This document shows, piece by piece, positions 9,152-58,984 of a stretch of 64,000 nucleotides of DNA. The notes beneath the pieces were generated by a model that was not told where the DNA came from, did not search any database, and worked only from the letters and a program-made list of their open reading frames with translations. This DNA is from Vescimonas fastidiosa (GTDB taxonomy: Bacteria; Bacillota; Clostridia; Oscillospirales; Oscillospiraceae), in assembly GCF_018326305.1 (NCBI RefSeq), contig NZ_AP023415.1, positions 124,001 through 188,000 on the forward strand, read 5' to 3'. How positions within the stretch are numbered: the first letter of the stretch is position 1; each line of letters begins with the position of its first letter. The position numbers and the translations under genes are program-made.

Positions 9152-9336
9152 AAAAAAGCCTCGCAGAGTTACGCGTCCGCAGACGCGAAAAATTGGGATC
9201 ATTTTTCACCGCGACATGTGCGTGGGGAAAAATACCGCGCAGTCTGCCAGTGTGGACTTTTGTCGCTTTGCGGCAAAAGTATGCGCGCAGCAGACTGTAA
9301 ACCTTTTGTCGGAAAAACCGGAGGTTTTTCGACAGT
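9152..9336 (+). repeat. Structured intergenic repeat, copy 1 of 3
   Basis: Element of about 185 bp between the XRE gene and comEC, related to 43135-43323 and 58867-58984. Conserved blocks are GCCTCGCAGAGTT, GCGACATGTGCGTG, GCGCGCAGCAGACTGT and TTTTGTCGGAAAAACC. Four hairpins can be drawn: GCGTC/GACGC around CGCA, TTTTTC..CC/GGGGAAAAA, ACTTTTGTCGC/GCGGCAAAAGT, and TGTCGGAAAAACC/GGTTTTTCGACA. The arms differ between copies but pairing is kept. It is flanked by two similar GC-rich hairpins (about 9112-9143 and 9341-9375), as if a terminator had been duplicated. Strand is arbitrary; read on the minus strand it sits 3' of a gene in every copy. Confidence 0.8.
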
Positions 9337-9339
9337 CTC

Positions 9340-9375
9340 AAAAAACGCCCCCTCTGCCGAAGCGGAGGAGGCGTT
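9340..9375 (-). terminator. Terminator of the XRE regulator gene
   Basis: Stem AAACGCC..CCTC / GAGG.GGCGTTT on the minus strand followed by TTTTTT, 11 bp after the stop of the XRE gene. A similar hairpin without a clean tail lies at about 9112-9143, on the other side of the structured repeat. Confidence 0.75.
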
Positions 9376-9385
9376 TGTGGCGCGG

Positions 9386-9991
9386 TCAGGTTTTGGATAT
9401 ATCAATGTTGGTGTAGCCGGAGAGCTGGTTGAAAACGGACTGCTTGCCCTCCTCCACGGCGTGATGCAGCATCTTCATATCGGGCTGCACATTGTCAGGA
9501 CACACCAGGTCGCCGCAGACCTGATCCATCTCGTAGTTTTCCAGAATGGTCCGGGCAGCCGTGACCCGGGAGCGCAGAGAGCTGTGGCAGTGGGCCGTGA
9601 ACATCTGCAGCAGGGAGTACCAGGGGCTGCCGTGGCGGCCGGCCATGAGGTAGAGGAGCTGGCGCTTTTCCACCTGCGTCATGTTCTTCACCAAAAACAG
9701 CAGGGCCTGCTCAATTTCCTCGTCGTTGTCGTCGGGCTTAATGCCGTCAAACATCCAGGGATAGAGGAAGGCCAGGTAGTAGGGCAGGGGATTGATACCC
9801 AGCACCCGGAACCACTCAGACCCCTCAAACAGATCCGGGGCGCTGGCGCCCTTTTCCCAGTTTTGAATGGTTTTTTTACTTACGCCCAGGCCGTTGGCCA
9901 TGTATTCCTGGGTCTTGTCCGTATCGGCGCGGGACAGGCTCCAGATCTGCGCGAAGCGCTTGACGCGATCACTTTTATTGTCTTTACGCAT
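9386..9991 (-). CDS. XRE-family helix-turn-helix protein
   Basis: A 201-residue protein with an N-terminal helix-turn-helix of the XRE/Cro type: YMANGLGVSKKTIQNWEKG (about residues 31-49) has the recognition-helix pattern. The remainder (60-201) is an unassigned helical region rich in aromatic and acidic residues. An in-frame GTG lies three codons upstream; the ATG at 9991 has the better spacing to GGTG. A stand-alone regulator with its own terminator; targets are unknown. The neighbouring MgtC-type gene is divergent, so control of it is possible but unproven. Confidence 0.8.
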   Translation of the reverse strand: MRKDNKSDRVKRFAQIWSLSRADTDKTQEYMANGLGVSKKTIQNWEKGASAPDLFEGSEWFRVLGINPLPYYLAFLYPWMFDGIKPDDNDEEIEQALLFLVKNMTQVEKRQLLYLMAGRHGSPWYSLLQMFTAHCHSSLRSRVTAARTILENYEMDQVCGDLVCPDNVQPDMKMLHHAVEEGKQSVFNQLSGYTNIDISKT

Positions 9992-10268
9992 GTATATCAC
10001 CCACTTTACAAAAAATCATATTCGGCAATAATATTTTATCAGCTTAATAACAGCTTGTCAACAGCTAAGATAATTTTTTTGACCTAAATTATTGGGGTCG
10101 AGATAAATATTCTGCCATAAAACGCACAAAAAATAGGGCACTGCGCTTTTGACTGCATTTCCGGTCTCCTTTTTTGCATCTGCCGAGGACAAAACCAACG
10201 GTTGCAATGGAGCCGAATTTATGCCATAATCAGGTCACAAAAACATTTTTAAGACCGGGAGGGGCGTA
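9992..10268. other. Divergent intergenic region between XRE and MgtC genes
   Basis: AT-rich 277-bp region that must carry the two divergent promoters. I see no clear -35/-10 pair with good spacing and no M-box magnesium riboswitch consensus ahead of the MgtC-type gene. The only firm element is GGGAGGGG just before the ATG at 10269. Confidence 0.5.
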
Positions 10269-10958
10269 ATGGCGCACTTTTTGACCTTATTACAGGAAAA
10301 TAATCTCTTGTCCACCGTGTTGCGGCTGCTGCTGGCGGCGGTGCTGGGGGGCCTTATCGGCACCGAGCGGGGAGCCAAGGGCCGGGCGGCGGGGATGCGC
10401 ACCCACATCATCGTGTGCATCGGCGCGGCCATGACGGCCCTGGTGGGGCTTTACACCACGGATGTCCTGGGGCAGAGCTCCGACCCCATGCGCCTGAGCG
10501 CCCAGGTCATTTCGGGCATAGGCTTTTTGGGCGGCGGCATGATCCTCATCCGGGGCCGGCACCGCATCACGGGGCTGACCACGGCGGCGGGCCTGTGGAC
10601 CACGGCGGCCATCGGCCTGGCGGCGGGTGTGGGGTTTTACACCGGAGCCATTGCCGCCTCGGCCCTGCTGCTGCTTACCAATATTCTCCTGCCCCATATT
10701 GAGCGGGAGAAGAGTCTCACCCGGGATGTGATCTACGCGGAGGTGGACCGAGAGGGCTGCATCAATGAATTTTTGGAGCTGATGAAGGCCCGGTACGCCA
10801 TCGACAGCGTCCGGGTGGTGGCGGCCCGAAGCAATCTGCCGGGGCATATCGGCCTGGAGCTGGATGTTCCGGCGGCCAGCAAAATCAAAACCGAGGATAT
10901 TTATAAGCAGATCCGGGAGCTTCCCTATGTGGCCTTTGCCATGGAGCAAACGGACTGA
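10269..10958 (+). CDS. MgtC/SapB family membrane protein
   Basis: A 229-residue membrane protein. The N-terminal MgtC domain has about four to five hydrophobic spans and the family signature GGLIGTERGAKGRAAGMRTH (residues 27-46), then GIGFLGGGMI and GLTTAAGLWTTAAIG. Residues about 150-229 form a soluble ACT-like tail (VIYAEVDREG..). MgtC proteins are linked to magnesium limitation and, in pathogens, to survival in macrophages; here only family membership is supported. Ribosome site GGGAGGGG is 5 nt before the ATG. It is a single-gene unit closed by a strong terminator. Confidence 0.9.
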   Translation: MAHFLTLLQENNLLSTVLRLLLAAVLGGLIGTERGAKGRAAGMRTHIIVCIGAAMTALVGLYTTDVLGQSSDPMRLSAQVISGIGFLGGGMILIRGRHRITGLTTAAGLWTTAAIGLAAGVGFYTGAIAASALLLLTNILLPHIEREKSLTRDVIYAEVDREGCINEFLELMKARYAIDSVRVVAARSNLPGHIGLELDVPAASKIKTEDIYKQIRELPYVAFAMEQTD

Positions 10959-10987
10959 AAGACGATGCTTTGCAAACAAAAAAATTC

Positions 10988-11033
10988 GGTGTGCGGGGAC
11001 GCTCCTTCGGAGTACCCCCGCACACCTTTTTTT
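10988..11033 (+). terminator. Terminator after the MgtC-family gene
   Basis: Long stem GGTGTGCGGGG / CCCCGCACACC with an inner GCTCC/GGAG hairpin, then TTTTTTT on the plus strand. Confidence 0.92.
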
Positions 11034-11078
11034 ATTTTTATTGTAAGTTTTATCGAAAACTGTTTTCGGGACAGCCTG

Positions 11079-11756
11079 TTAGCTGCCCTCCCGGATAAAC
11101 CCCTCAAACCCGGCTTCCCTCAGACGCCGGAGCATCCTCTCGGCGTTTTCCCGTACGGCGAAGGCGCCCACCTGCACACGGTAGAGCTTGTCGGTGGCGG
11201 GCTTTTCCGGCTCGACAGGCTTGGGCTGCTCTTTCTCCTGGAAGGTCACACCGAAGTAGTCGCAGATGCCCCGGGCGATGGTCTCCCCGATGAGCCCGGT
11301 GTTCTCCACGATCCACTTTGACGCAGTGGGGTTATCGTGGAACTCGCACTCGATATAGGCCGTAGGGGCGGCAGGCACCCGTACCTCGTAGAGGGAGGCA
11401 TCTGCCCGGATATTCTCACTGGTGCCGGGGGTGACCGGGGCCAGCCGGTTGAAAATGGCCTGACAAGCCTTCTGACCTTCCCCGCCCTCGGCGTAGCAGA
11501 ACATCCGGGTGCCGCTCACCGTGCCGTTAAAGGCGTTGGTGTGGATGGGCACATGGAGGTCGGCGCCGAAGGCGTTGGATGCCGCGCACTTCTCCTGCAT
11601 GGATTCATCGTGCATCAGCTTCACGGTCACGCCGCTGCGCTCCAGGGCCTCCCGGCAAGCCTGGGCGATCTTGCCGCACTGTACGCCTTCGGTGGTGTCG
11701 CCGTAGGCGTAGCGGTTATCATACTGGTTGCTGGGGGAGAGAAATACCTTAGGCAT
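11079..11756 (-). CDS. Phage-type N-acetylmuramoyl-L-alanine amidase with SPOR domain
   Basis: Cell-wall hydrolase of 225 residues. The Amidase_3 domain (1-180) shows the phage variant FLSPSNQYDN in place of the usual DPGHGG, the downstream metal ligand in VPIHTNAF, and the catalytic Glu in AYIECEFHD. A proline/glutamate linker (PKPVEPEKPA) leads to a C-terminal SPOR domain (LYRVQVGAFAVRENAERML), which binds denuded glycan. There is no signal peptide, so release would depend on the holin. Its ATG overlaps the holin stop by 8 bp. It is the last gene of the phage-like cassette. Confidence 0.9.
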   Translation of the reverse strand: MPKVFLSPSNQYDNRYAYGDTTEGVQCGKIAQACREALERSGVTVKLMHDESMQEKCAASNAFGADLHVPIHTNAFNGTVSGTRMFCYAEGGEGQKACQAIFNRLAPVTPGTSENIRADASLYEVRVPAAPTAYIECEFHDNPTASKWIVENTGLIGETIARGICDYFGVTFQEKEQPKPVEPEKPATDKLYRVQVGAFAVRENAERMLRRLREAGFEGFIREGS

Positions 11757-11967
11757 TTTCTGCGCCCTCTTCCTTGATTTCCGGCAGGCCCGCCACGCTG
11801 GTGAGCAGGGACAGGATGCCCGCCAGCAGCGACGCGCTGCCCACCATCACCCAGTTTACCTCGCCCAGCACGGCGCTGGTGCCGATGGTGGCCACGGCGG
11901 TCTGTGCCACGGTCTTTACGGCGCGCACGGCGGCGGCCTTTGCCCACTGTTTCCAATTCTTTTTCAT
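11749..11967 (-). CDS. Phage holin (r1t-like)
   Basis: A 72-residue membrane protein. The start MKKNWKQWAKAAAVRAVKT has a basic amphipathic N-terminus, followed by two hydrophobic segments (TVAQTAVATIGTSAV and WVMVGSASLLAGILSLLTS) and an acidic tail EIKEEGAENA, matching small class II holins such as phage r1t. The ATG at 11967 follows GGAAGGAG at a normal distance; the longer open frame to 12051 overlaps the upstream gene. Holins make membrane lesions that let endolysin reach the wall. It overlaps the amidase gene. Confidence 0.85.
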   Translation of the reverse strand: MKKNWKQWAKAAAVRAVKTVAQTAVATIGTSAVLGEVNWVMVGSASLLAGILSLLTSVAGLPEIKEEGAENA

Positions 11968-12016
11968 TTTTTGCTCCTTCCTGTACCCGGTGGGTACGAT
12001 CCATTTTATGATTTTC

Positions 12017-14128
12017 TCAGTAACACAGCTCCCGGTCATAGCCTGCGCCATAGGCGATAAAGTGGAGCTTTCGGTTCTTGCGGTCGATGCTCACCACGCA
12101 AAAGCTGGTGCTCTCGGCGGTGTTTTGGGTTTTGGGATAGTATACGGGGGCGCCGCTCTCGTCCCGCTCCCCGAAAACCCGTTTCCAGTCTGCGTCGTTG
12201 GCGGTGGCGGCCTCATTGTTGCGGCACACATCCAGGTTGGGGATGCACACGCTCCAGAGCCAGGCCTTTTCCGCCGTCACGGCGTGCCAGGGCTCGCTGC
12301 TGATCTTGCGGCAGGTGAAGTTGTGGTTGTGGCCGTGAATGGCGCAGATGATCTCCCCCCGGGGCTTTTCGGTAAAATCATAGCTTACAGCCGAGGTAAC
12401 GCCGTTGCCGGTGACGCTCACCGTACCCTTTGTGCCGTTTTTGTAGGCGGTGAGCACGGCTGTGACCTGGGGGAAAATACTCAGGCAGTGGTGGGAAAAC
12501 AGAACGATCTGCCACTTGCCTGCATCGGCCTTTCCCGAGAGATCTAGAGCCGTGTCCGCCAGCCACCGGGTCTGCACCGCCGTCACATCCGAGGCGCTGT
12601 CCGCCTGGCCCGTCAGGTCCGGCCAGTCCAGGGAGTCAATGGTGTTGAGATAAATGCAGCGGATACGCTGATTTTCAAAATCCAGGAATCCGTAGTTTCG
12701 GCCCGGATGGTCCGCGTCCTGCCTGGGTGCGGTGTTACCGGCTCCGATGGCGGCGTATAGCTCGTCCTCTGTCAGGCGCCGGTCGGCGTTTGCGCCGTAG
12801 TTGATGTCGTGGTTGCCGGTACACCAGATGCCGGGCAGGCCCCGTACCGCCTCCGCCATGTACCGGTGATACTGCCGCAGATCCCGCTTCACCTGGGCCG
12901 CCGTCTCCGCGCTGTCGGCGTAGGTGTAGTCCCCCAGCATCACCGCCAGGTCCAGGGGGATGTGCCTGCGCAGCTGCTCCAGCCCCAGCCCCGCATCCCG
13001 GCAGGCGGTGAGGTTGGCCTGCACCGCCGTCAGGGGCGAATCCACCTCCAGGTGTGCGTCCGCCATAGCCGAAAAGGTCAGGCTGCCTGCGGTGCGCTTA
13101 GACTGCACCAGGTCCGCCACCCGTGCGGCCTCCGCCGCAATGTACGCCGGAGCGTCGCCCTCCCGGGGCAGCGCCGCCTTCTCCTCCAGGGCCAGGATGC
13201 GCCCTTCATAGTCCGCCGGCACAAAGGCGCGGCCCGTGCTTTGCCAGCCGGTAACGGTCTGGGTGGTGCTCTCCAGGGGCTCATTTACCGTCACAACGGT
13301 GGCGCTGTCAATGAGCAGCATAGACAGGCGCATATAGGCCGTCTGCCGGAGCTGGTCCTGCGTCATAGTGGTGGTGGCAGCGGTGGAGAGACTGCCCTCC
13401 AGGGTGCCGTCCTCCAGAAGGAACTGGGCCAGGGGGTTATACTTGCTGTTCATGGTGAAGGCCACCAGGAAGCCGTGGTTTGCATCGTAAAAGCAAATGT
13501 TGTTGTAGCCGTTGGCATCCTCCACCCGAAAGCTTTTGGCCCGGAAGGTGTCCTCGTAGGTCACCGGGATGAAGCCGGACACCTCGTAGTTGGCCCGGGC
13601 GTCCTCTCCGCCGGTGCCGCCGTGGAGCTTGTAGCCGGTTTTCCATCCGGCCCCGCCGTTAAAGGGCGTACCGTCCGCCTCGGTAGACAGTGGCAGCCGG
13701 TTGGTGGGGTGGAGCACCGAGGTCTTGGTCATGTTGGCATAGACGAAGCCGTCCGGCAGCACATAGACCTTGCTTGTGTCGGTGCAGTCCGCCACGGTGT
13801 CGGCGTAGAGGGGGATGAGCTGGGTGGTACCGGGCTCGCCCTTGTCCCCCTTACTGCCCCTGTCGCCCTTTTCGCCCTTTTCGCCCTTTTCCCCCCGGTC
13901 TCCCTTTTCCCCGGGCACGCCCTGGGTGCCCCGGGAGGGCAGCCCCGTGTCGGTGCTGCCCAGAAACCAGTTGCCGTTTACCCCGATGGTGGGGGTGTCG
14001 CCGTCCTTTCCGTCCCTGCCGATGTTCACGAACCCCTCCGATACCGCCGTAAAGCAGCGGCTCTCCTCCGCCATGGCGGCGGGGAAGGGGATATTCTCCG
14101 CCTGCAGGGAGACTTGCATCTTACCCAT
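12017..14128 (-). CDS. Phage tail-type protein with collagen-like repeat and calcineurin-like phosphoesterase domain
   Basis: A 703-residue protein. Residues about 1-60 contain a short tail-like start (MGKMQVSLQAENIPF). Residues about 66-101 are 12 uninterrupted Gly-X-Y triplets rich in GEK/GDR, a trimeric stalk typical of phage tail fibres. A beta-rich middle region follows. The C-terminal metallophosphoesterase domain has all motif blocks: ADAH, GDYTY, TGNHDI, SHHC and GHNH. No signal peptide. The ATG at 14128 shares its A with the stop of the preceding gene and follows GAGGGG. I infer a receptor-binding or surface-processing tail protein whose phosphoesterase could act on a phosphate-containing wall polymer. 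The substrate is unknown. Confidence 0.85.
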   Translation of the reverse strand: MGKMQVSLQAENIPFPAAMAEESRCFTAVSEGFVNIGRDGKDGDTPTIGVNGNWFLGSTDTGLPSRGTQGVPGEKGDRGEKGEKGEKGDRGSKGDKGEPGTTQLIPLYADTVADCTDTSKVYVLPDGFVYANMTKTSVLHPTNRLPLSTEADGTPFNGGAGWKTGYKLHGGTGGEDARANYEVSGFIPVTYEDTFRAKSFRVEDANGYNNICFYDANHGFLVAFTMNSKYNPLAQFLLEDGTLEGSLSTAATTTMTQDQLRQTAYMRLSMLLIDSATVVTVNEPLESTTQTVTGWQSTGRAFVPADYEGRILALEEKAALPREGDAPAYIAAEAARVADLVQSKRTAGSLTFSAMADAHLEVDSPLTAVQANLTACRDAGLGLEQLRRHIPLDLAVMLGDYTYADSAETAAQVKRDLRQYHRYMAEAVRGLPGIWCTGNHDINYGANADRRLTEDELYAAIGAGNTAPRQDADHPGRNYGFLDFENQRIRCIYLNTIDSLDWPDLTGQADSASDVTAVQTRWLADTALDLSGKADAGKWQIVLFSHHCLSIFPQVTAVLTAYKNGTKGTVSVTGNGVTSAVSYDFTEKPRGEIICAIHGHNHNFTCRKISSEPWHAVTAEKAWLWSVCIPNLDVCRNNEAATANDADWKRVFGERDESGAPVYYPKTQNTAESTSFCVVSIDRKNRKLHFIAYGAGYDRELCY

Positions 14129-14427
14129 CACAGCGTCCCCTCTTTCAGAATTCGGCCCACCGTGGCGGTGATGACCTCCGAGGCCAGGCGCTTTTCCCCA
14201 ATGCCGCATCGAAGCTGGATCTGCAGCACCGACCCGTTTTGGCGAAAGGCCAGGGTGTCCTCCTCCGTCAGACGCACGGAGACCTGCTGCCCGCTGACGG
14301 TGCAGTCCTCCAGTTTTTTCTCCAGCACCAGGACGCCGTCCTGCTCAAAGGCGATGGATAGCTTTGTCAGCGCTCCAGCGTCGAAGGGCAGCTGGAAGGT
14401 GAGCTCCGGGGTTGTTCCCCTTGTCAC
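14128..14427 (-). CDS. Small phage-structural-like protein (unknown function)
   Basis: A 99-residue, beta-strand-rich protein with no recognised domain (start MTRGTTPELTFQLPFDAG). It starts with GTG at 14427, 9 nt after AAAGGAG; an overlapping ATG two bases upstream runs straight into a stop. It is coupled to the tail-type gene by a TGATG junction, and its size and place before a collagen-like tail gene resemble small baseplate or tail accessory proteins of Firmicutes prophages. Function is inferred from position only. Confidence 0.7.
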   Translation of the reverse strand: MTRGTTPELTFQLPFDAGALTKLSIAFEQDGVLVLEKKLEDCTVSGQQVSVRLTEEDTLAFRQNGSVLQIQLRCGIGEKRLASEVITATVGRILKEGTL

Positions 14428-14429
14428 AT

Positions 14430-14812
14430 TCGATCACTCCTTTCTCAGTATTCACCTATCCCCCATCCCGGCCGGGATGTTTCCCCTCCGTTGCCTGCCT
14501 CTGTGCAACAGGAGCAGACTTTTTATCCGGTGTTAATTTTTCGTATATTTCGATAAAAGGAAAACTGCGAAAATTACGATTGATTTCACATGAATTGCCA
14601 TAATTTTTTGGCGTATTGCCGAAAAACGCAATAAAAAATCTACAAACAGACATATAGGAAATGCTGGTAAACTTATTCCGGTATGCTATAATTAGACCGT
14701 AAAATCTTTCGTTTATTCGACAAAATGAGACAGGCGCTTGCCTGGTGCGTCACCGCCCCGGGCTGTGCCGCGGCGGAGAAATTCAAAAGAAGGAAAGAGG
14801 CGAGCGCGGAGC
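14430..14812. other. Divergent intergenic region between phage-like cassette and polysaccharide operon
   Basis: The 14520-14700 part is AT-rich, unlike its surroundings. A plus-strand -10 box TATAAT lies at 14687-14692 with only a weak -35 (TGGTAA) about 17 bp upstream; this is the likely start of the polysaccharide operon. About 100 bp of GC-rich leader without a recognisable riboswitch follows. I could not identify the minus-strand promoter of the phage-like genes. Confidence 0.55.
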
Positions 14813-14974
14813 ATGAGAAAGCGCCTTGTGATCTTCGGCGGCGGTCATGGCAGAGCCATGGCCGATGCCGCGCTGAAAATGGGCTACCGCACCCTCGCAT
14901 TCCCGGATGACCGCGCCACGGGCCGGTGTATCGGCTTCCCGGCCCGGAGACGGGAGAAGGGGGCCGCCGTATGA
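14813..14974 (+). pseudogene. N-terminal remnant of a NeuD/PglD-type sugar O-acyltransferase
   Basis: A 53-residue frame starting MRKRLVIFGGGHGRAMADAA, the Rossmann-like PglD N-terminal pattern (FGGGGHG-type loop, then LAFPDDR). Family members continue for another 150 or more residues with left-handed beta-helix hexapeptides, which are absent; after DDRATGRCIG the sequence becomes basic and stops. The stop overlaps the next ATG (ATGA), so it may now serve mainly to couple translation of the GT4 gene. It probably marks a deletion at the front of the polysaccharide cluster. Confidence 0.65.
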
Positions 14975-16155
14975 ACATTCTCCTGCTGGCCCACTTCGTC
15001 ACGGACTTCGACCCCCACGGCACCAGCCGCTTCATCTGCCTGGCCCGGCGTTTGGGCCGGGAACATCGGGTGGAGCTGGTGACATCGGATTTTGACCATC
15101 GGGCTAAGGAGACCCGGCGGGAAAGGGACTTCGCCCTGCCTGCAAAGGTCACCCTTCTGCCCGAGCCGGGCTACCCGAAAAATATATGTCTGCGGCGGCT
15201 TTTCAGCCATTGGCTCTTTGCCCGCCGGGTGCGGGCCTATCTCAAGGGCCGGGAAAAGCCCGACGCGGTTTACTGCGCCGTACCGTCCCTGAGCTGCGCC
15301 TACTACGCCGCCCGGTACGCCGAGAAAAACCGGATTCCCTTTGTCATCGATGTGCAGGACCTGTGGCCGGAGGCCTTCTCCCTGGCGGTGCCCGGAGCGG
15401 CCCGTTTCCTGCTGCGCCCCCTTGTCCGGCGGGCGGAATATATCTATAAAAGCGCCGACATCATCGTGGGCGTTTCCGAGACCTATTGCCGCCGGGCGGC
15501 CCGCTGCAGACCCGACCCCGTGCCGTGCCTGCCGGTATATTTGGGCACGGATCTGGCCCGGTTTGACCGCTGGGCTTCTTCTCCGGCCCGGCGGGACCCG
15601 GAGAAATTCATTCTGGCCTACGGCGGCACCCTGGGCCATAGCTATGATATCCCCTGCGTTTTGGAGGCCCTGGCTCTTTTGAAAGGGCGAGGCATCTCCG
15701 TGACCCTTTGGGTCCTGGGCGACGGGCCTCTGCGCGGAGCTTTTCAGACCCGGGCGGAGGAGCTGGGGGTGGAGGCGGTGTTCTATGGCCGGGTGCCCTA
15801 CCCGGAGCTGTGCGCCCTGCTGCGTGCCTGCGATGTCTGCGTCAATCCCATCGTTCCCGGCGCGGCCCAGTCCATCATCAATAAGCACGCCGACTATGCC
15901 GCCGCCGGGCGACCGGTCATCAGTACCCAGTCCTCCCCGGAGTATCGGGCCTTGCTCACGCGCTACCGCTGCGGCCTGAGCTGTCCAGCCGGGGATGCCG
16001 CCGCCGTGGCGGAGGCGATTTCCTATCTTATGGACCATCCCGGGGAGCGCCGGGCCATGGGTGAGCGGGCCCGGCAAATGGCGGAGGACTTATTTGACCG
16101 GGAAAAAACCTATGAAAAGATTTTGGATTTGTTTTCCGGGGAGGGGAGCCTATGA
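14971..16155 (+). CDS. Glycosyltransferase family 4 (WbuB-like)
   Basis: A 394-residue GT-B fold glycosyltransferase. The start MNILLLAHFVTDFDPHGTSR carries the N-terminal loop of WbuB/WcaI-type enzymes. IDVQDLWPE (about residue 127) is the characteristic WbuB motif, and the C-terminal nucleotide-sugar half holds AYGGTLGHSYD, LGDGPLR and the HADYAAAGRPVI region. It should transfer a sugar from a nucleotide donor to a lipid-linked glycan on the cytoplasmic face. It overlaps the NeuD remnant and licD by ATGA junctions. Donor and acceptor cannot be deduced. Confidence 0.9.
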   Translation: MNILLLAHFVTDFDPHGTSRFICLARRLGREHRVELVTSDFDHRAKETRRERDFALPAKVTLLPEPGYPKNICLRRLFSHWLFARRVRAYLKGREKPDAVYCAVPSLSCAYYAARYAEKNRIPFVIDVQDLWPEAFSLAVPGAARFLLRPLVRRAEYIYKSADIIVGVSETYCRRAARCRPDPVPCLPVYLGTDLARFDRWASSPARRDPEKFILAYGGTLGHSYDIPCVLEALALLKGRGISVTLWVLGDGPLRGAFQTRAEELGVEAVFYGRVPYPELCALLRACDVCVNPIVPGAAQSIINKHADYAAAGRPVISTQSSPEYRALLTRYRCGLSCPAGDAAAVAEAISYLMDHPGERRAMGERARQMAEDLFDREKTYEKILDLFSGEGSL

Positions 16156-40542: not shown

Positions 40543-40640
40543 ACGGTATACCCCCTTTCCGGCAGTATTTGCCCCGGGAGGTAGAAATATACATTTTTTG
40601 TTAACACAGAGAAGAAAGGAGACCATGGGGCGACCCATCA

Positions 40641-40815
40641 CAAGCGCCAGTGCCCGTCTCAGGCGGGACGACGAGGAGGAGAGAGTATCGAGTTTTTCGG
40701 CGGAAGCTCTCCCGTACCGTCCGGGTACGCACACAGCCGGTAAATATGCGGGTGACCGCAAAACAGAGAGGCTGTGGCCGGACAGGAATGACAAATGTCT
40801 GTGTGTTTGTCCTTC
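40641..40815 (+). ncRNA. glmS ribozyme
   Basis: Self-cleaving riboswitch upstream of glmS. The sequence starts AAGCGCCAGTGCCC with the cleavage site expected 5' of G40644, and contains the conserved core GACGAGGAGGAGAGAG..TATCGAG..TTCGGCGGAAGCTCTCCC (in parts: ACGAGGAGGAGAGAGTATCG, TTCGGCGGAAGCTCTCCCG), with a P4-type domain GGCTGTGGCCGGACAGG. GlcN6P acts as cofactor for cleavage and lowers GlmS production. The end is approximate. Confidence 0.93.
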
Positions 40816-43134: not shown

Positions 43135-43323
43135 CAAAAAAGCCTCGCAGAGTTTGCCGCCCGCAGGCGGCAAAGAAATGAAATCATTTTCTCTCGCGAC
43201 ATGTGCGTGAGAGAAAATACCTCTCAGGCTGCCAGTGTGGAATTTTTGCGCACGGCGCAAAAATTATGCGCGCAGCAGACTGTGAGCCTTTTGTCGGAAA
43301 AACCCGGAGGGTTTTTCGACAGT
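43135..43323 (+). repeat. Structured intergenic repeat, copy 2 of 3
   Basis: Best-paired copy. Hairpins: TTTGCCGCC/GGCGGCAAA around CGCA; ATTTTCTCTC/GAGAGAAAAT around GCGACATGTGCGT; AATTTTTGCGC/GCGCAAAAATT around ACG; TTGTCGGAAAAACCC/GGGTTTTTCGACAG around GGA. Compared with copy 1, both arms of the second and third hairpins changed together. It lies between convergent genes and is followed at once by a terminator. Confidence 0.82.
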
Positions 43324-43325
43324 AT

Positions 43326-43368
43326 GAAAGCCCATGCTTTCGTTTTCTGAAAGCATGGGCTTTTTGAC
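43326..43368. terminator. Terminator between the glmS-linked gene and the baiN-like gene
   Basis: Stem AAAGCCCATGCTTTC / GAAAGCATGGGCTTT with a seven-base loop and TTTTT on the plus strand. It lies directly after repeat copy 2 and may work in both directions. Confidence 0.9.
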
Positions 43369-48739: not shown

Positions 48740-49205
48740 GGACGGGGGATGCGGATTGCCACGGGCGCGGAGCGCCCTCGCAATGACAGGGGTTTTTGTA
48801 AGGGGTGCGGGGGCGGCGGGCCGATGTGGGGAACGAACTGAGCGCTGCCGGTGGCAGAGGAAGCGAGGTGAGCGAGTGGCCGCGGTCAAAATTTCCAGCG
48901 TCCGCCGTAAGGCAGCGCAGAAATTTTGGGCACCGCAACAGGATCATCGGCCCCTACGAAATGGTTTGTAGGGGCGGATGACTCTGTCCGCCCGGGATGG
49001 CACACAATATTTTTGTAGGGCAGGGCCCGTGTGCCCTGCCGGGAGTGCGGTACAAGGCCGGGCGGCGGGGGGAGGGCACCCCGCCCTACGGGGGCACAAG
49101 AAGCACGGCAAAACGGGGCGTCGAGGACGCCGCCCCCTACGGATGGGGAACGCGTGCCACCGTGAGGATTGCCCCTACGGAGGGGGTGTAAGGGGTAAAT
49201 GGGCG
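48740..49205. repeat. Intergenic palindromic repeat block B
   Basis: No gene visible. A minus-strand TGTCATTGCG unit (48752-48788, hairpin GGGCGCGGAGCGCCC) is followed by GTAGGGGC-type units: CATCGGCCCCTACGAAATGG, GTAGGGGCGGATGACTCTG, GTAGGGCAGGGCCCGTGTGC and others. Confidence 0.72.
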
Positions 49206-52307: not shown

Positions 52308-53129
52308 TTAGAGGCGGGCAATGACAGACTCGACCAGCTGCCGGAGATGGTGGCTGCTGCGGTTGGCGGCGGCCAGGACCTCCTGGTGGGAGTGCTTCTT
52401 TTCGGCGATGCCGGTGGCCATGTTGGTAATGCAGGCGATGCCCAGGACCTCCAGGCCCAGGTAGTTGGCGGCGATGGCCTCGGGGACGGTGGACATGCCG
52501 ATGGCATCGGCCCCCAGGGCGCGATAGGCGCGAATTTCAGCGGCGGTCTCATAGCAGGGGCCGGGGAAAATAGCGTACACGCCCTCCTTGCAGGGAATGC
52601 CCAGCTCCCGGGCGGCGGCCTTAGCCAGATCGCGCAGGCGGAGGGAGTAAACCTCGGTCATATCCGGGAAGCGGGGGCCGAAGCGCTCGTCATTTTCGCC
52701 GATAAGAGAATTGGCTCCCAGCATATTGATGTGGTCCGTCAGAAGCATCAGGTCACCGGGCTGGAGGGTGCGGTCGATGCCGCCGCAGGCGTTGGTGAGG
52801 AGCAGTGTCTGGACGCCCAGGAGCTTCAGCACATACATGGGGTAGGTGACCTGACGCATGGTAAAGCCCTCGTAGTAGTGGAAGCGGCCCTGAAGGGCGG
52901 CTACCGTTTGCCCTGCCAGGCGGCCAATGACCAGGTTCCCGGCATGGCCCGCCACAGTGGAGCGGGGGAAATGGGGAATGTCGGCATAGGGGAGGACGGT
53001 TTTATCCTCCATGGAATCCACCAGGCCGCCCAGGCCGCTGCCCAGGACCACACCGCAGGTGGGCCGCAGGGGGCAGTGGGAGAGGATGTAGTCGGCGGAG
53101 CTTTGAACGGTTTCGTAAAAATTGGACAT
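52308..53129 (-). CDS. punA: Purine-nucleoside phosphorylase
   Basis: Trimeric PNP that splits purine nucleosides with phosphate, 273 residues. The phosphate-binding GVVLGSGLGGLVD (about 30), GRFHYYEG (about 80) and base-binding GPCYETAAEIRAYRALGAD with GMSTVPEAI are visible. The ATG at 53129 follows GGAGG; the open frame upstream to 53252 is repeat sequence. With the deaminase and HD genes nearby it suggests nucleoside salvage. Confidence 0.95.
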   Translation of the reverse strand: MSNFYETVQSSADYILSHCPLRPTCGVVLGSGLGGLVDSMEDKTVLPYADIPHFPRSTVAGHAGNLVIGRLAGQTVAALQGRFHYYEGFTMRQVTYPMYVLKLLGVQTLLLTNACGGIDRTLQPGDLMLLTDHINMLGANSLIGENDERFGPRFPDMTEVYSLRLRDLAKAAARELGIPCKEGVYAIFPGPCYETAAEIRAYRALGADAIGMSTVPEAIAANYLGLEVLGIACITNMATGIAEKKHSHQEVLAAANRSSHHLRQLVESVIARL

Positions 53130-53194
53130 GAGTGAGCCTCCTTTGATTGAGATAGAGAAAAGATGAAAGTGGAAAGGAAAAAGATGGGCTTTGA

Positions 53195-53507
53195 AAAACG
53201 GGTTGCATTGTCGGGGCGGAGACTCTGTCCGCCCGCCGGGATTGCACCGCATTTCTTATAATGTGTCATTGCGAACCAGTGACCGATGTCACTGGTGTGG
53301 CAATCCGTGCCCCCGTCCCTAAGGCCCCCTTGCCTAAAGGGTTTTTGCAAGAAATGCGGTGTGCGGGCCGATGTGGGCATCGGCCCCTACGGCATGTAAG
53401 GGGTGCGTAGGGCGGGCTGCCCTCAGCCCGCTACCTGATAGCCACCGCACCAGCACGGCGGCGTGAGGGCACGCCGCCCTACGGGCGAGTTACAAGGGGT
53501 GCGGTGG
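53195..53507. repeat. Intergenic palindromic repeat block C
   Basis: Contains GGGGCGGAGACTCTGTCCGCC, a TGTCATTGCG unit with hairpin CCAGTGACCGATGTCACTGG (53264-53307), a CCCCCTTGCCTAAAGG fragment (53325-53343), GGGCCGATGTGGGCATCGGC and GTAGGGCGGGCTGCCCTCAG units. No gene seen. Confidence 0.72.
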
Positions 53508-53975
53508 TCAGCCTTTTTTATGGCTGGCGAAGTAGTTTTCCAGCACTTGCAGGCTCTCCTGGCGGAGGACACCGGGGGTGACCTGGGGGTGCCAGAAGGA
53601 ATTTTCAAAGACCAGGGCAGAGCAGTTACAGCCCTTATTGCCAAGGATGGTCTCCAGGTCGTCGTTGCTGGCGCCGTAGACCAGGCGGCCCAGCTTCACC
53701 CACACCAGAGCACCGCTGCACATGAAGCAGGGCTCGCAGCTGGCGTACATGGTGTACTCGTGCAGATCGGTGATGCCCGTTTGGGCGCAGAACTCCCGAA
53801 TGAGACCCGCTTCGCCGTGAAAACTGGGATCGTGGCGGGTATAAATTTGATTTTCGTTTTCAAAAACGATCTCGCCGTCCTTTACCAGCACCGCGCCGAA
53901 GGGCTCGTTGCCGTGGGCCACGGCGGATTTGGAAAGCGCAATGGCCCGGCGCATGAAAAAATCATCGTTATGCAT
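53508..53975 (-). CDS. Cytidine/deoxycytidylate/guanine deaminase family protein
   Basis: A 155-residue zinc-dependent deaminase. The zinc and proton-shuttle motif is FHGEAGLI (HGE rather than the common HAE) and the second motif is SCEPCFMCSGA (PCxxC). The C-terminal PQVTPGVLRQESLQVLENYF resembles guanine deaminases of the GuaD type and related nucleoside deaminases. The substrate is uncertain. It lies 12 bp after the HD gene on the same strand. Confidence 0.87.
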   Translation of the reverse strand: MHNDDFFMRRAIALSKSAVAHGNEPFGAVLVKDGEIVFENENQIYTRHDPSFHGEAGLIREFCAQTGITDLHEYTMYASCEPCFMCSGALVWVKLGRLVYGASNDDLETILGNKGCNCSALVFENSFWHPQVTPGVLRQESLQVLENYFASHKKG

Positions 53976-53987
53976 GCGTTTGCCTCC

Positions 53988-54560
53988 TTACTTGATTTTC
54001 TTTTCCCGGTCGATTTTCTCCTCCGTCTCCCGGCGGATGGCCTGGCGGAGGGCGGTGAGGTAGGGGGAGAAGGCCACATTGCCCTGGGCGTAGGTGAGGT
54101 TCAGGCTGTATTCGTTCTCCGTCCAGGTGGAGAGATCGGACTCGTTGTGCTGGATGACCGCCTCCAGCTTGTCCAGGGCCTTGTAGATTTTGGCTTCCTC
54201 TGTTTCCAGGGCGGCCATTTCCCGGTACAGCGTGCGCATTTCGGCGGCGTAGGGGGCGGGGAGGGCGTCTACCCACGCATGCAGCAGGCGCTCCTCCCGG
54301 GCCTCATCGGCAGGGGTTTTGCTGAAGCTGGGGATGTCGCCGGTGAAGCACTCCCCTAAATCGTGAATCAGGCACATCCGCAGGACCTTGTCCATATCCG
54401 CCCGGGGAAATTCATCCCGGAGAAAGAAGGCCATGAGAGCCAGACGCCAGCTGTGCTCGGCCACACTCTCCCGGCGGCCGCCGGAGGTGCAGCAGTGGCG
54501 GGTGATGTCCTTCAGCTTTTCTGCGGTGTGCAGTATGAGGAGCAGTTCGTCAGGTTGCAT
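53988..54560 (-). CDS. HD-domain hydrolase (YfbR-like)
   Basis: A 190-residue protein with the HD superfamily metal ligands: VAEHSWRLALMAF (His at about 36), CLIHDLGECFTGD (HD at about 69) and a later Asp region DKLEAVIQHNESD. The pattern fits the YfbR/5'-nucleotidase branch, which hydrolyses deoxynucleoside monophosphates; the assignment is by similarity only. The ATG at 54560 overlaps the quinone reductase gene by 11 bp. Confidence 0.85.
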   Translation of the reverse strand: MQPDELLLILHTAEKLKDITRHCCTSGGRRESVAEHSWRLALMAFFLRDEFPRADMDKVLRMCLIHDLGECFTGDIPSFSKTPADEAREERLLHAWVDALPAPYAAEMRTLYREMAALETEEAKIYKALDKLEAVIQHNESDLSTWTENEYSLNLTYAQGNVAFSPYLTALRQAIRRETEEKIDREKKIK

Positions 54561-55134
54561 GGCCGTCCTCCTTATCCGTCGTTTCCGTAAGACCGTAGGC
54601 TGCCATGGCTTTATGCAAAATGGCCTCGGGGTCACAGCCGTCTATATCCAGCAGCTCCGCCTTCACAAGCTCCGCCTCGGGGATACCGAAATTCTCCGTG
54701 GCCATGGCCCGAAGCTGGTCGAAGCCGAAGCGGGGGTCGTAGGGGCCGCCGGAGGTGGAGACATAGTAGAGCTTTTTCGCCCGACACAGGCCCACGGGCA
54801 GGCCCGCTTCGCTGTAACGGGTGACGATGCCGGTGACGAAGATGTTTTCCAGGTAAATTTTGAGCTGGGCAGGGAAGGACAGATCCCACAGAGGGGCGGA
54901 CAGGACGATCTGCTCTGCGGCGGCGAACTGCCGGGCGTAGCGGAACATCTCTGCGCCGTAGTCCTTTTGGGAGAGCAAGGCGTCCCGCAGGGCGATGCGA
55001 TGGGCATCCATGGGGCGCAGGGGCTCGTCATAGAGCCGCAGCTCCTCATAGGGGCCTAATTTTTGCAGCAGGGCCCGGGCCAGCCGATCCGTGCGGGAGT
55101 CGGGCCGGGCGCAGGCATTTACATACAGGATCAC
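54550..55134 (-). CDS. Flavodoxin-fold NAD(P)H:quinone oxidoreductase (azoreductase-like)
   Basis: A 194-residue FMN-dependent reductase starting with GTG at 55134 behind GGAGGTG. The N-terminal MILYVNACARPDSRTDRLAR has the phosphate-binding Ser/Thr loop position of the AzoR/MdaB family, with SAPLWDLSFPAQLKIYLENI (conserved PxxNFxxPxxLKxwxD-like) and STSGGPYDPRFGFDQL. Physiological substrate unknown. Confidence 0.85.
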   Translation of the reverse strand: MILYVNACARPDSRTDRLARALLQKLGPYEELRLYDEPLRPMDAHRIALRDALLSQKDYGAEMFRYARQFAAAEQIVLSAPLWDLSFPAQLKIYLENIFVTGIVTRYSEAGLPVGLCRAKKLYYVSTSGGPYDPRFGFDQLRAMATENFGIPEAELVKAELLDIDGCDPEAILHKAMAAYGLTETTDKEDGHAT

Positions 55135-55152
55135 GGGTCTGCACCTCCGTTT

Positions 55153-55953
55153 TTAGAGTTGGATGCGCTCCAGGTCATCGGGGATATAGAGCCCGCCGGC
55201 GAAGTATTCGCGGCCCTCCCGGGTGTAGAGCTCCTTGCGCCGGGGGAGATTTTTGTCCTCGGTATGGTAGAGCACCAGATTCTCCACCCCCAGCTCCCGG
55301 GCCAGGCGGCAGGCATCGGCCACGGTGGAGTGGTGCTTTTCATAGGGATGGAATACATCAGCCTGGCTGTGCAGGCAGAAGGCCTCGTGGAGGAGCCAGG
55401 TACTGCCGCGGACATAGGATTCCTCGCAGTCATGGTAGGGCTCATCGCCGCAGCAGGTGAGCTTTTTTCCGCCGCCTAAATCCATGGAAAAGCCGAACTG
55501 GCGGTCCTTGGTGGAGCCGATGTCGAAAAAAGTGGTGCTTCGGCCTATAAGCTCCCGGCTTTCCCCGTCCTCCACCGCCACCAGGTGCAGGCCCTTGTCC
55601 AAAAAGCGAAGATGGTTTTCCTGGAGCAGTCCCCGGGCCAGGGTGCGCAGCAGGTCAATGACCTGACTGTGGGCGTAGATGGTGGCCTCCCCTTCGTAGG
55701 TGCCCTGGGCCATATTTTGGCAGATCAGGCGCATCATCCAGGCGATGCCGAGGATGTGGTCGATGTGCTTGTGGGTGACGAAAATGGTGCGCAGGTCCCG
55801 CCAGTCGATGTGGGCCTCCTGCAGGCGGCGCAGGAGGGTATTGCCTCCGCCTCCGTCCACCAGCAGGTGCTGCTCGCCGCTGCGGAGGACGAAGCAGGTG
55901 TTATAGCACCGGGTGACCATGGCACTGCCCGTGCCCAGCATGATAAGTTCCAT
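55153..55953 (-). CDS. MBL-fold metallohydrolase (RNase Z-like)
   Basis: A 266-residue metallo-beta-lactamase-fold protein. MELIMLGTGSAMVTRCYNTC opens the domain, LLVDGGGGN follows, and the metal motif is THKHIDHILG (about 60-69). Further His residues lie in LLHEAF and the LVLYHTED segment near the C-terminus. It resembles RNase Z/arylsulfatase-type members but lacks features to fix a substrate. Confidence 0.85.
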   Translation of the reverse strand: MELIMLGTGSAMVTRCYNTCFVLRSGEQHLLVDGGGGNTLLRRLQEAHIDWRDLRTIFVTHKHIDHILGIAWMMRLICQNMAQGTYEGEATIYAHSQVIDLLRTLARGLLQENHLRFLDKGLHLVAVEDGESRELIGRSTTFFDIGSTKDRQFGFSMDLGGGKKLTCCGDEPYHDCEESYVRGSTWLLHEAFCLHSQADVFHPYEKHHSTVADACRLARELGVENLVLYHTEDKNLPRRKELYTREGREYFAGGLYIPDDLERIQL

Positions 55954-56039
55954 AGGAGTTGTCCTTTCTGCGTCATTGCAAACATTATAACGCGGATGGG
56001 CGAATGGGGCAATAAAAAAATTGTTACCGGGGGACGGAT

Positions 56040-56215
56040 TGCCATAGACGGCGGGCGGGGTAGAACCCCGCTCCGCCGCCCCGGACCACCGGCCTACCTG
56101 TTTTGCGTAGGGGAGGGGCTCTGCCCCTCCCGCGGGCGGGGTAGAACCCCGCCCCTACGGATCGTATCAAGAAAAGATTTGCGCCCTCGCAATGACGGTT
56201 TTTGCCATAATATAA
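56040..56215. repeat. Intergenic palindromic repeat block D
   Basis: Units GGCGGGGTAGAACCCCGCTC, GTAGGGGAGGGGCTCTGCCC, GCGGGGTAGAACCCCGCCCC and a trace of CCTCGCAATGACGG, downstream of feoB. No gene seen. Confidence 0.7.
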
Positions 56216-56255
56216 AAAGGTGCCACGCCGGGGGCTGCGGTCCCCGGCGTGGCGG
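56214..56255 (-). terminator. Terminator of feoB
   Basis: Stem GCCACGCCGGGG / CCCCGGCGTGGC; on the minus strand the tail is ACCTTTTTATATTA. Confidence 0.9.
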
Positions 56256-56300
56256 TTAAAGGAGATATGCGTCTGTTTGCTTATCAGATTTTTGGACTTA

Positions 56301-58793
56301 TCAGATCTTGGCGGAGAGCTTGGTGGCTTCCTTGTAGGGGCGCACCAGCATATAGACCAGGAATACCAGGGCGGCCACGGCAAAGATGAGACCGATGATA
56401 TTCATGCTGCCGGTAAACAGGCCGCCGAACTGGTTGATCATCAGACCGATGACATAGGCGAAGCCGCACTGATAGCCGATGGCAAACCAGGTCCACTTGT
56501 GGTTGTTCATCTCCCGCTTGATGGCGCCGATGGCGGCGAAGCAGGGAGCGCACAGCAGGTTAAAGACCAGGAAGCTGTAGCCGCTGATGCCGTTGAAGGC
56601 CTGGGCGATGTTCTGGTACACGGTTCCGTCGCCGCCGCCATAGAGGATACCCAGAGTACCCACGATGTTCTCCTTGGCCACAAGGCCGGTGATGGAGGCC
56701 ACGGCGGCCTGCCAGGTGCCCCAGCCCAGGGGCTTGAAGATCCAGGCGATGACACCGCCGATGGCAGCCAAAATGGAGGAGTCGATCTCACTCTCATCCA
56801 GCATACGGAAGGTGCCGTCCACCCAGCCGAAGTAGGTGGTGAACCAAACAAAGATGGTGGAGAGCAGGATGATGGTACCGGCCTTCTTAATGAAGGACCA
56901 GCCGCGCTCCCACATGCTGCGCAGGACATTGCCCAGGGTGGGCCAGTGGTAGGCGGGCAGCTCCATAACGAAAGGAGCGGGGTCGCCGGCGAACATCTTC
57001 GTCTTTTTCAGCATGATGCCGGAGACGATGATGGCGGCCATGCCGATGAAGTAGGCGGAGGTGGAGACCCATGCGCTGCCGCCGAACAGAGCGCCGGCGA
57101 TCATGGCGATGAAGGGCACCTTAGCGCCGCAGGGGATAAAGGTGGTGGTCATAATGGTCATACGGCGATCCCGTTCGTTTTCTATGGTACGGGAGGCCAT
57201 GATGCCGGGCACGCCGCAGCCCACGCCGATGAGCATGGGGATGAAGGATTTGCCGGACAGACCGAACTTGCGGAACACACGGTCCAGAACGAAGGCGATA
57301 CGGGCCATGTAGCCGCAGGCCTCCAGGAAGGCCAGCATCAGGAACAGCACCAGCATCTGAGGCACGAAGCCCAGCACGGCACCCACACCGGCTACGATAC
57401 CGTCCAGGATCAGGCCACTGAGCCAGGGAGCGGTGTCGGCCGCATCCAGGGCATCACCGATCAGCACAGGGATACCCGGGACCCACACGCCGTAGTCGGC
57501 GGGATCCGGGGCCTCAAAGCCGTTCTTCTCCAGGTAGGCCACGGCGTCCACATAGGTCATTTGGACCACATCGTCCATCTTGTCGGCGCCCTCGGGCAGA
57601 GCGTTATAGTAGGCGGTCATGGTGTTGATGGCCAAGGTCTCCTCATCCTCCACATCCACGGTGGCGGTGGTGGAATCGGGGGTGAAGGCCTTCATATCGG
57701 CCAGGGCGGCGCTTGCGTCAAAGTCCTCGGCCTCCGTGTCCAGACCCAGGAAGGCATCCACGGCCTGGATGGCGGCGGTGTACTCATCATTGACCTCGTT
57801 ATACTCCTTGGAGCCGATGCCCAGCAGGTGCCAGCCGTCACCGAACACGCCGTCATTGGCCCAGTCGGTAGCGGGGGCGCCTACGGCTACCATGGCGATC
57901 CAGTATACCAGGAACATCACCGCGGCAAAGATGGGCAGACCCAGCCAGCGGTTGGTGACGATCTTGTCGATCTTGTCGGAGGCGGAGAGGGTGCCCGCAT
58001 TCTTTTTCTTGTAGCAGCCCTTGATGAGCTCGGCGATATAGACATAGCGCTCACCGGTGATGATGCTCTCGGCGTCATCGTCCAGCTCCTTCTCGGCGGC
58101 CTTGATGTCCTCCTCGATATGGGCCATGACATCGGCGGGAATGCTCAGCTGGGAGAGAACCTTGTCATCACGCTCGAAGATCTTGATGGCGTACCAGCGC
58201 TGCTGCTCCTCGGGCATGGTATGTACGGCGGCCTCCTCAATGTGGGCAATGGCGTGCTCCACGGGGCCGGAGAAGGTGTGCATGGGGACGGTCCTTCCGC
58301 CGTTGGCGGCCCGGACGGCCTCCTCGGCGGCCAGCATGACGCCGGTGCCCTTCAGAGCGGAGATCTCCACCACCTTGCAGCCCAGCTCCCGGGCCAGCTC
58401 CTGGGTGTTGATGCTGTCACCGTTCTTCTTCACCACATCCATCATGTTGATGGCCACCACAACGGGAATGCCCAGCTCGGTGAGCTGCGTGGTGAGGTAG
58501 AGGTTGCGCTCCAGGTTGGTGCCGTCGATGATATTCAGGATGGCATCGGGACGCTCCTTGATCAGATAGTTACGGGCTACCACCTCCTCCAGCGTGTAGG
58601 GGGACAGGGAGTAGATGCCGGGCAGGTCCATGATCACCACATCGTCGTGCTTCTTCAGCTTGCCCTCTTTCTTCTCCACCGTGACGCCGGGCCAGTTACC
58701 AACGAACTGATTGGAGCCGGTGAGAGCGTTGAAAAGGGTGGTCTTGCCGCAGTTGGGGTTGCCCGCCAACGCGATCTTGATTTGTTTTTCCAT
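56301..58793 (-). CDS. feoB: Ferrous iron transport protein B
   Basis: Main Fe(II) importer, 830 residues. The N-terminal G domain has G1 GNPNCGKTTLFNALTG, G3 DLPGIYSLSPYT, G4 NMMD and SALKGTG; a helical GDI domain follows to about 270. The membrane domain (about 285-820) has two Gate motifs, including CGYMARIAFVLDR (the conserved GYMAR) and GCGVPGIMASRTIENERDRR. An acidic loop of about 100 residues (TEAEDFDASAALADMKAF..) between early spans is longer than in E. coli FeoB. It has its own upstream GGTTAG palindrome and lies 193 bp after feoA with the structured repeat in between. Confidence 0.97.
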   Translation of the reverse strand: MEKQIKIALAGNPNCGKTTLFNALTGSNQFVGNWPGVTVEKKEGKLKKHDDVVIMDLPGIYSLSPYTLEEVVARNYLIKERPDAILNIIDGTNLERNLYLTTQLTELGIPVVVAINMMDVVKKNGDSINTQELARELGCKVVEISALKGTGVMLAAEEAVRAANGGRTVPMHTFSGPVEHAIAHIEEAAVHTMPEEQQRWYAIKIFERDDKVLSQLSIPADVMAHIEEDIKAAEKELDDDAESIITGERYVYIAELIKGCYKKKNAGTLSASDKIDKIVTNRWLGLPIFAAVMFLVYWIAMVAVGAPATDWANDGVFGDGWHLLGIGSKEYNEVNDEYTAAIQAVDAFLGLDTEAEDFDASAALADMKAFTPDSTTATVDVEDEETLAINTMTAYYNALPEGADKMDDVVQMTYVDAVAYLEKNGFEAPDPADYGVWVPGIPVLIGDALDAADTAPWLSGLILDGIVAGVGAVLGFVPQMLVLFLMLAFLEACGYMARIAFVLDRVFRKFGLSGKSFIPMLIGVGCGVPGIMASRTIENERDRRMTIMTTTFIPCGAKVPFIAMIAGALFGGSAWVSTSAYFIGMAAIIVSGIMLKKTKMFAGDPAPFVMELPAYHWPTLGNVLRSMWERGWSFIKKAGTIILLSTIFVWFTTYFGWVDGTFRMLDESEIDSSILAAIGGVIAWIFKPLGWGTWQAAVASITGLVAKENIVGTLGILYGGGDGTVYQNIAQAFNGISGYSFLVFNLLCAPCFAAIGAIKREMNNHKWTWFAIGYQCGFAYVIGLMINQFGGLFTGSMNIIGLIFAVAALVFLVYMLVRPYKEATKLSAKI

Positions 58794-58807
58794 TTGACTC
58801 TCCTTTC

Positions 58808-58825
58808 GGTTAGTGAAGCCTAACC
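58808..58825. promoter_or_regulatory. Candidate iron-regulator box in the feoB leader
   Basis: GGTTAG-TGAAGC-CTAACC, a perfect 6-6-6 inverted repeat just upstream of the feoB ribosome site. The same architecture occurs twice ahead of the first feoA gene. It resembles DtxR/IdeR/MntR-type operators. Confidence 0.7.
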
Positions 58826-58866
58826 AGTACTTAAAAAATAAAAATAGGGGCCTGAAAAGGGCGGTG

Positions 58867-58984
58867 CAAAAGCCTCGCAGAGTTTGCGCCCGCAGGCGAA
58901 AAAAATGAAATCATTTTTCACCGCCACCTGCGCGCAGCAGACTGCAAGCCCTTTTCCGGAAAATTCTAAAAATTTTCCGGCAGG
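58867..58984 (+). repeat. Structured intergenic repeat, copy 3 of 3 (shortened)
   Basis: Shares GCCTCGCAGAGTTTGCGCCC, ATGAAATCATTTTTCACCG and GCGCGCAGCAGACTG with the other copies but lacks the central hairpin. The last hairpin is rebuilt as CCGGAAAATT/AATTTTCCGG, different bases but the same pairing position. It lies between feoA and feoB, inside or at the edge of the iron-uptake unit. Confidence 0.75.

Follow-up and report, generated by a model that had tools for sequence, protein, structure and literature searches.

We analysed a window of 64,000 nucleotides (nt) from Vescimonas fastidiosa (Oscillospiraceae; RefSeq assembly GCF_018326305.1, contig NZ_AP023415.1, positions 124,001 to 188,000 of the forward strand), which carries three copies of a structured intergenic repeat. 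A sequence-only reading had located the copies at 9152-9336, 43135-43323 and 58867-58984; all three indeed lie there, and both sequence blocks that it quoted are present in each. For copy 1 it had the right place and too narrow an extent, as the unit with its ends and the flanking duplication runs from 9108 to 9374. Its statement that every copy, read on the minus strand, is located 3' of a gene applies to the three window copies, and genome-wide 50 of the 66 full-length copies have a minus-strand gene at their right (gene contexts were taken from our own simple hexamer-based gene caller). The features are given below in window positions; R1 is a covariance model made from 40 copies of this genome (alignment A1, aligned with MAFFT only and not fitted to a structure), and A1 columns refer to that alignment.

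9108..9142, + strand: copy 1, left member of the terminator duplication, a hairpin of 35 bp that is terminator-like when read on the minus strand; direct-repeat score 35 against the right flank
9143..9152, + strand: copy 1, left end X (CAGCGCGACA, diverged from CAGCGTGTCA), the 10 nt between hairpin and core that are constant in many copies
9153..9336, + strand: copy 1, full-length structured core; R1 match of 202.7 bits
9337..9339, + strand: copy 1, last bases (CTC) of the right end Y, GACAGTCTC; the right gap is 3 nt long in 39 of 62 duplicated copies and reads CTC in 35 of 62
9340..9374, + strand: copy 1, right copy of the terminator hairpin, adjoining a minus-strand HTH (helix-turn-helix) gene that ends at 9386; a relative (locus L218) has one terminator here
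43137..43323, + strand: copy 2, full-length structured core without detectable flanking duplication; R1 match of 222.4 bits, flank score 13, inside the controls
43155..43172, + strand: copy 2, hairpin at A1 columns 21-39 (RNAalifold pairs on A1)
43186..43218, + strand: copy 2, hairpin at A1 columns 53-85 with arms TTTTCTCTC/GAGAGAAAA (RNAalifold pairs on A1)
43225..43282, + strand: copy 2, long hairpin (A1 columns 92-151) that includes two fixed G-T pairs (RNAalifold pairs on A1, G-T counts)
43291..43322, + strand: copy 2, right-end hairpin at A1 columns 161-193 (RNAalifold pairs on A1)
43327..43365, - strand: single terminator-like hairpin just right of copy 2, read by eye and absent from the pattern-scan listing
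58867..58984, + strand: copy 3, shortened by internal deletion, with most of the two middle hairpins missing as read from its sequence; R1 match of 63.7 bits

The repeat proved to be abundant. A DNA search of this genome (2.50 Mb, three contigs) yielded 113 candidates, of which 40 were scored and all 40 matched, and the covariance-model search of the genome and its relatives that the sequence-only reading had proposed added many further copies: in this genome, where 150 of 1635 candidates were scored, at least 108 had an R1 match at E<=0.001, and 66 of these matches score at least 166 bits over 167-193 nt and were taken as full-length. From the shorter or truncated matches 32 were read (the remaining weak ones were left unread), and many of these have internal deletions or are cut at one side, some from the left and others from the right. 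The internal deletions, in copy 3 and at other short loci, seem joined at short GCAG/GCGGC stretches common to different hairpins. Of 60 genomes in its neighbourhood, this one counted, 35 have matches to R1 (30 of the 31 other genomes of the genus, three of the five others of the family and one of the 23 from elsewhere in the order), and matches to a broader model (R2) are present in 61 of 394 genomes and 26 of 168 genera of the order. These multi-genome searches scored at most 43 (60-genome set) or six (394-genome set) candidates per genome and their copy counts are lower bounds; one genome, G042, has at least 42 matches. In phage and plasmid collections we found relatives on five unverified 'Bacteriophage sp.' gut scaffolds, which may be bacterial, and on one plasmid of Pusillibacter faecalis (Oscillospiraceae); a pattern search of the viral_contigs collection gave no match. 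The sequence-only reading recognised no named family, in line with Rfam 15, in which no family reached its gathering score over the element in the window, in one copy searched at a relaxed threshold or at 20 relatives' loci. A literature search, with subscription papers mostly outside its reach, retrieved no description of the repeat or of terminator duplication by a mobile element. Elsewhere in the window, Rfam matched a glmS ribozyme (40632-40786) and a leader of ribosomal protein L10 (47566-47699).

The flanks of many copies are direct repeats of a terminator. When the 75 nt left of each core were aligned with the 75 nt right of it, 62 of 141 copies (29 of 66 in this genome, 26 of 49 in relatives and 7 of 26 in other genomes of the order) scored at or above 28, the 99.9% quantile of 8395 mismatched left/right pairs. 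For the most part the repeated flank is a hairpin, varying between loci, whose feet are A-rich and T-rich, and the limits of the repeat coincide with these feet, both within 2 nt in 41 and within 3 nt in 48 of the 62 copies. The length of the duplication has a median of 32.5 bp and ranges from 17 to 51 bp without falling into discrete classes. Hairpin and core are separated by constant bases, CAGCGTGTCA or close variants at the left and mostly CTC at the right, and in a few copies (L096, L131, L078 and L035) the repeat includes part of the left end too. In the genome G011, four of the seven compared cores are identical to the letter and are found in four different terminators, three with a perfect duplication and the fourth (L119) with a partial one. 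Among the duplicated copies with called neighbours, most (34 of 55) have convergent genes on their two sides, as palindromic two-way terminators would bring about, and tandem contexts are neutral with respect to orientation (9 (+,+) and 10 (-,-)).

Sites without the element were found in relatives. The HTH_3 gene at the right of copy 1 has an 85% identical relative in CAMBKF010000006.1 (metagenome-assembled contig of an uncultured Oscillibacter; locus L218), where a single terminator follows the stop codon and precedes a stretch with a 20-base match (around TATAATCGA) to the far side of the window element; the covariance model identified no element over this locus. Similarly, leuS is followed by a single terminator in G009 and G017 (94% and 93% identical in the searched part), without an element according to the model at either leuS locus, and in this genome the element after leuS is flanked on both sides by that terminator. 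The glnA locus was considered as a further empty site and dropped, its relatives having other terminators or gene orders there. One gene gap, at the side of a DEAD-box helicase gene, is occupied by the element both in this genome (L038) and in G001 (L129), in opposite orientations and in different terminators; these insertions are apparently independent.

Another important finding was that the ends are shared by two kinds of core. The ends of the family described so far (family 1) are constant and imperfectly inverted, with CAG[CT][GT]TGTCAAAA at the left (X) and TTTTGACAGTCTC at the right (Y); they contain TGTC...GACA, and the constant bases extend outside this motif. By following the end sequences we identified a second family, in which an X-end hairpin and a long hairpin are combined with an invariant GACACCC...GGGTTTC segment, and which occurs with the same ends and the terminator duplication. 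Its copies include:

L216:2786-2946, this genome: family 2 copy
L109:1854-2014, this genome: the same
L277:4868-5025, this genome: the same
L261, L264, L283-L285, L290, L293 and L297: further family 2 loci

In a sample of 17 distinct copies (repeats of an inner sequence already included, such as L271 and L301, were passed over), 8 have a terminator duplication scoring above the maximum of 272 mismatched-flank pairs, and 15 of 38 predicted pairs show two-sided changes. We saw no likeness between the two families beyond the ends, and no Rfam family came near its threshold for family 2. At L250, L245 and L253 a family 1 core stands inverted between the same kinds of ends. Because two unrelated cores, and inverted family 1 cores, occur between the same ends, the ends appear to behave as transposition signals and the cores as passengers. 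In G011, three loci (L288, L289 and L292) have family 1 cores with two nested inserts that bear GTGAGTGCCCAAATCTCTGATTTGGCTGCACGAAC-type palindromes within their hairpins.

We therefore read the repeat as a non-autonomous mobile element of about 200 bp, moved in trans, whose targets are intrinsic terminators and whose target duplication takes its extent from the hairpin, and give this reading a probability of about 0.7. The mobility that the sequence-only reading had offered as one of two explanations is thus borne out by the empty sites and the target duplications, neither of which it had noticed. The insertion, the type of target, the foot-to-foot duplication and the shared ends are demonstrated by comparing genomes. 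For the mechanism we propose that an enzyme encoded elsewhere would act in trans on the X and Y ends, and that both strands would be nicked at the feet of the target palindrome, either in a cruciform or in hairpins at a replication or transcription bubble. The stagger of the nicks would then equal the length of the hairpin, and gap filling would copy it, leaving the gene with terminators at both borders of the insert. An enzyme with one fixed cutting distance would hardly produce a duplication that follows the hairpin, and cuts at both feet of an extruded palindrome would give it easily. The core may have been retained as hairpins because a folded single strand, presumably the + strand, is moved or recognised. 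Whether this amounts to a new mode of transposition, in which a trans-acting enzyme cuts both strands at the feet of terminator hairpins and structure measures the duplication, with two or more unrelated folded passengers that have only their ends in common and with neighbouring units that stay terminated on both sides, is a more tentative matter, to which we give somewhat less than an even chance.

Several observations weigh against the reading as a mobile element with a hairpin-set duplication. The nicking at hairpin feet is what we infer from the comparison of genomes, and no mobilising gene was found in the searches described below. The correlation between repeat length and hairpin length is moderate only (r = 0.58). 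The maximum of the pooled controls, 66, is exceeded by only 10 of 141 copies; we think that this maximum stems from two relatives with one common terminator, and when the controls are drawn only from this genome it falls to 32, a value that 28 of 66 copies exceed. At the threshold used, 79 of 141 copies have no duplication. In this genome they number 37 of 66, and 11 of these 37 lie within 6 nt of the stop codon of a minus-strand gene, compared with 0 of 29 duplicated copies. Hence not every copy arose by insertion into a terminator, or not every copy kept the trace. Conservation of the core across families extends to copies that lack the ends and the duplication, for example L071, L243, L246 and L247 of family f7. 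The non-duplicated copies could date from old insertions whose ends have worn, or the core could move, or be kept, in a second way.

An ordinary miniature inverted-repeat transposable element (MITE) of a DDE transposase with long duplications (IS1202/IS481 type), which prefers palindromes so that the agreement with hairpin feet reflects target choice, seems to us somewhat unlikely. According to published accounts, relatives of IS1202 duplicate 3-5 bp, more than 15 bp or nothing, IS481EU makes several discrete duplication lengths within one family, and the ends of Tn7 and IS1202 read TGT...ACA; the duplications observed here are long as well, and TGTC...GACA is found in the ends. Nevertheless, the lengths found here do not form classes, the limits are at the hairpin feet in 41 of 62 copies, and constant bases are present outside TGTC...GACA. 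Moreover, a search of the 60 genomes for the rve family, whose profile does not cover all DDE transposases, gave no match in this genome, G011 or G042; a lost or diverged DDE enzyme is possible.

Other searches for the mobilising enzyme were negative too. The Y1_Tnp family has two matches in this genome, and across the 60 genomes the occurrence of RVT_1, Y1_Tnp or rve does not track with that of the element; the copy-rich G042 has no match to any of the three. A recurrent neighbour gene was considered as mobiliser and rejected: after clustering of 441 called proteins no transposase was present among the 25 groups shown, the largest of which (11 proteins) is ABC-transporter-like by eye. No autonomous transposon with the same ends was seen in this genome (G000), G008, G011 and G014, which were searched with exact and near-exact end patterns and non-exhaustive reading of contexts; the patterns returned copies of the element, family 2, worn ends and some matches in coding sequence. 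The 360 nt past each new X end were read, and for four of these ends the whole stretch was searched for a Y end, with none found. In G011 an X end after a terminator hairpin is followed by a TATAAT-like promoter stretch 62 nt from the contig end (L296:620-685) and could be the edge of a larger element; 15 small contigs of the same genome (C31-C45) have no X or Y end by the patterns used. Genes for Y1 transposases that we take to be RAYT-like are found in the same neighbourhood in this genome (L203), G017 (L206), G009 (L207) and G024 (L209), as if vertically inherited; here the labels RAYT, IS200 and REP (repetitive extragenic palindromic) are our assumption, backed by Y1_Tnp matches and by eye only. 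In G023 (L211:2439-3123) a family 1 copy begins 37 nt after the stop of such a RAYT-like gene, with a duplicated terminator around the copy. Palindromes that we take to be REP-like, with the form CATTGCGAG...GCAATCC, occur at scattered places of the genome (window positions 48777 and 59878; L094, L111, L017 and L109).

A fold of the core is supported by covariation, both within the genome and across relatives. RNAalifold predicted 57 pairs on A1, 22 of which have changes on both sides, so that the paired arm changes reported between the window copies are real and general. In A1, 99.5% of the cells pair, compared with 34-53% when partners are slid by 1-3 columns; the covariation score was reached by none of 500 shuffles and the number of further pair types by 24 of 500. 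In an alignment of the relatives (52 matches, 48 distinct rows), which was fitted to the model and includes three weak opposite-strand matches, 50 of the 57 pairs covary and 96.2% of the cells pair, against 36-47% when slid. With the further copies, this covariation and the negative Rfam search, none of the refuting outcomes named in the sequence-only reading occurred. Two results nevertheless make it less certain that the paired changes reflect selection on an RNA, the other explanation that the sequence-only reading had offered. Outside four fixed positions G-T pairs are rare (0.7% and 1.2% of the kept cells in two family 1 alignments), and at an orthologous locus (L029 in this genome, L048 in G017) two hairpin tips differ block-wise while the flanks match. 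The folded form may be RNA or single-stranded DNA.

The tip blocks look like conversion between copies, or template switching, and the independent paired changes are therefore fewer than the counts suggest. That the paired changes arise mainly in this way, with hairpin arms being perfected without selection for structure, is nevertheless unlikely in our view. It would explain why two-sided changes far outnumber one-sided ones in A1 (192 two-sided cells in 40 copies) and why G-T pairs are rare, yet pairs covary across relatives, loops and spacers remain conserved, and four pairs fixed as G-T on the + strand persist in the wide sample, where perfecting alone would have removed them.

The fixed G-T pairs, the non-duplicated copies close to stop codons and the core conserved in copies that lack ends and duplication would also suit a structured RNA under selection for a host or regulatory function, with mobility explaining only its spread. 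For the folded strand we compared G-T with A-C counts (alignments A2, with three weak opposite-strand matches, and A3 were fitted to the model; A1 was not). After poorly paired columns were dropped G-T exceeds A-C (15 and 3 in A1, 30 and 12 in A3); this filter favours G-T, and the unfiltered counts in the wider alignment A3 are 35 and 38; in family 2 they number 3 and 5. Because these counts show no excess, the evidence for the + strand as the folded strand is moderate only. With the scatter of internal deletions through the genome and the block-wise tips also speaking against it, we regard a host RNA as quite unlikely.

Retrotransposition, in which the RNA is reverse transcribed at nicked terminators in the manner of group IIC introns, with variable target duplications, is very improbable: terminators are a known group IIC target, duplication lengths vary and some copies are left-truncated, but RVT_1 has no match in this genome nor in 43 of the 60 searched, including G014, G018, G024, G026 and G042, where elements are plentiful, and truncations come from both sides and the inverted ends would have no role.

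In the reading as a mobile element that duplicates its terminator target, the target's own hairpin seems to set the length of the duplication; if so, DNA is chosen and cut in a different way, and with a low cost of landing, as the gene retains its terminator and the other side gains one. In this bacterial order, a large class of intergenic repeats can be attributed to the element. It also calls for caution, since strong covariation in bacterial intergenic repeats may mark mobile folded DNA as well as regulatory RNA.

We could not match the element to any known mobile element in its mode of spread. It works like a MITE whose parent was not found, and we file it neither as a group IIC intron nor as an IS1202 relative because defining features of each were looked for and not found. 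Like bacterial MITEs (PMC10969869), which are short, intergenic and present in many copies, with inverted ends, a target duplication and no coding gene, it is short (core of about 190 nt), multicopy and without coding capacity, and it has imperfectly inverted X and Y ends, duplications and empty sites. In contrast to MITEs, no parent transposon was found, a core of covarying hairpins is kept across genera, the duplication is the whole terminator hairpin, and two unrelated cores share the same ends. REP sequences and REPINs with their RAYTs (PMC2817692) are likewise intergenic hairpin repeats that are probably moved in trans as folded single strands. However, no GTAG-type tetranucleotide head was seen at the hairpin feet, as read in alignments A1 and A4, a genome with many copies can lack a Y1 transposase (G042, with at least 42 matches, has no Y1_Tnp match, and this genome has two), and IS200/IS605 enzymes work without terminal inverted repeats or larger target duplications (PMC2817692). 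Most DDE transposases make duplications of fixed or similar length, with named exceptions (PMC10045372). Among these enzymes, one subgroup of the IS1202 family makes long target duplications, as seen here, and has TGT...ACA inside its ends (PMC10132070); this genome has no rve match, and the authors of that paper found no targets for the long-duplication subgroup. Group IIC introns (PMC4424553) also insert at intrinsic terminators, whereas here no Rfam intron reached its gathering score, RVT_1 is absent from this genome and the terminator is duplicated. Finally, in casposons and CRISPR spacer insertion (PMC4046053) staggered cuts flank a target unit and repair duplicates the whole unit; the likeness would be one of logic, and the target here is any terminator hairpin and not one repeat sequence.

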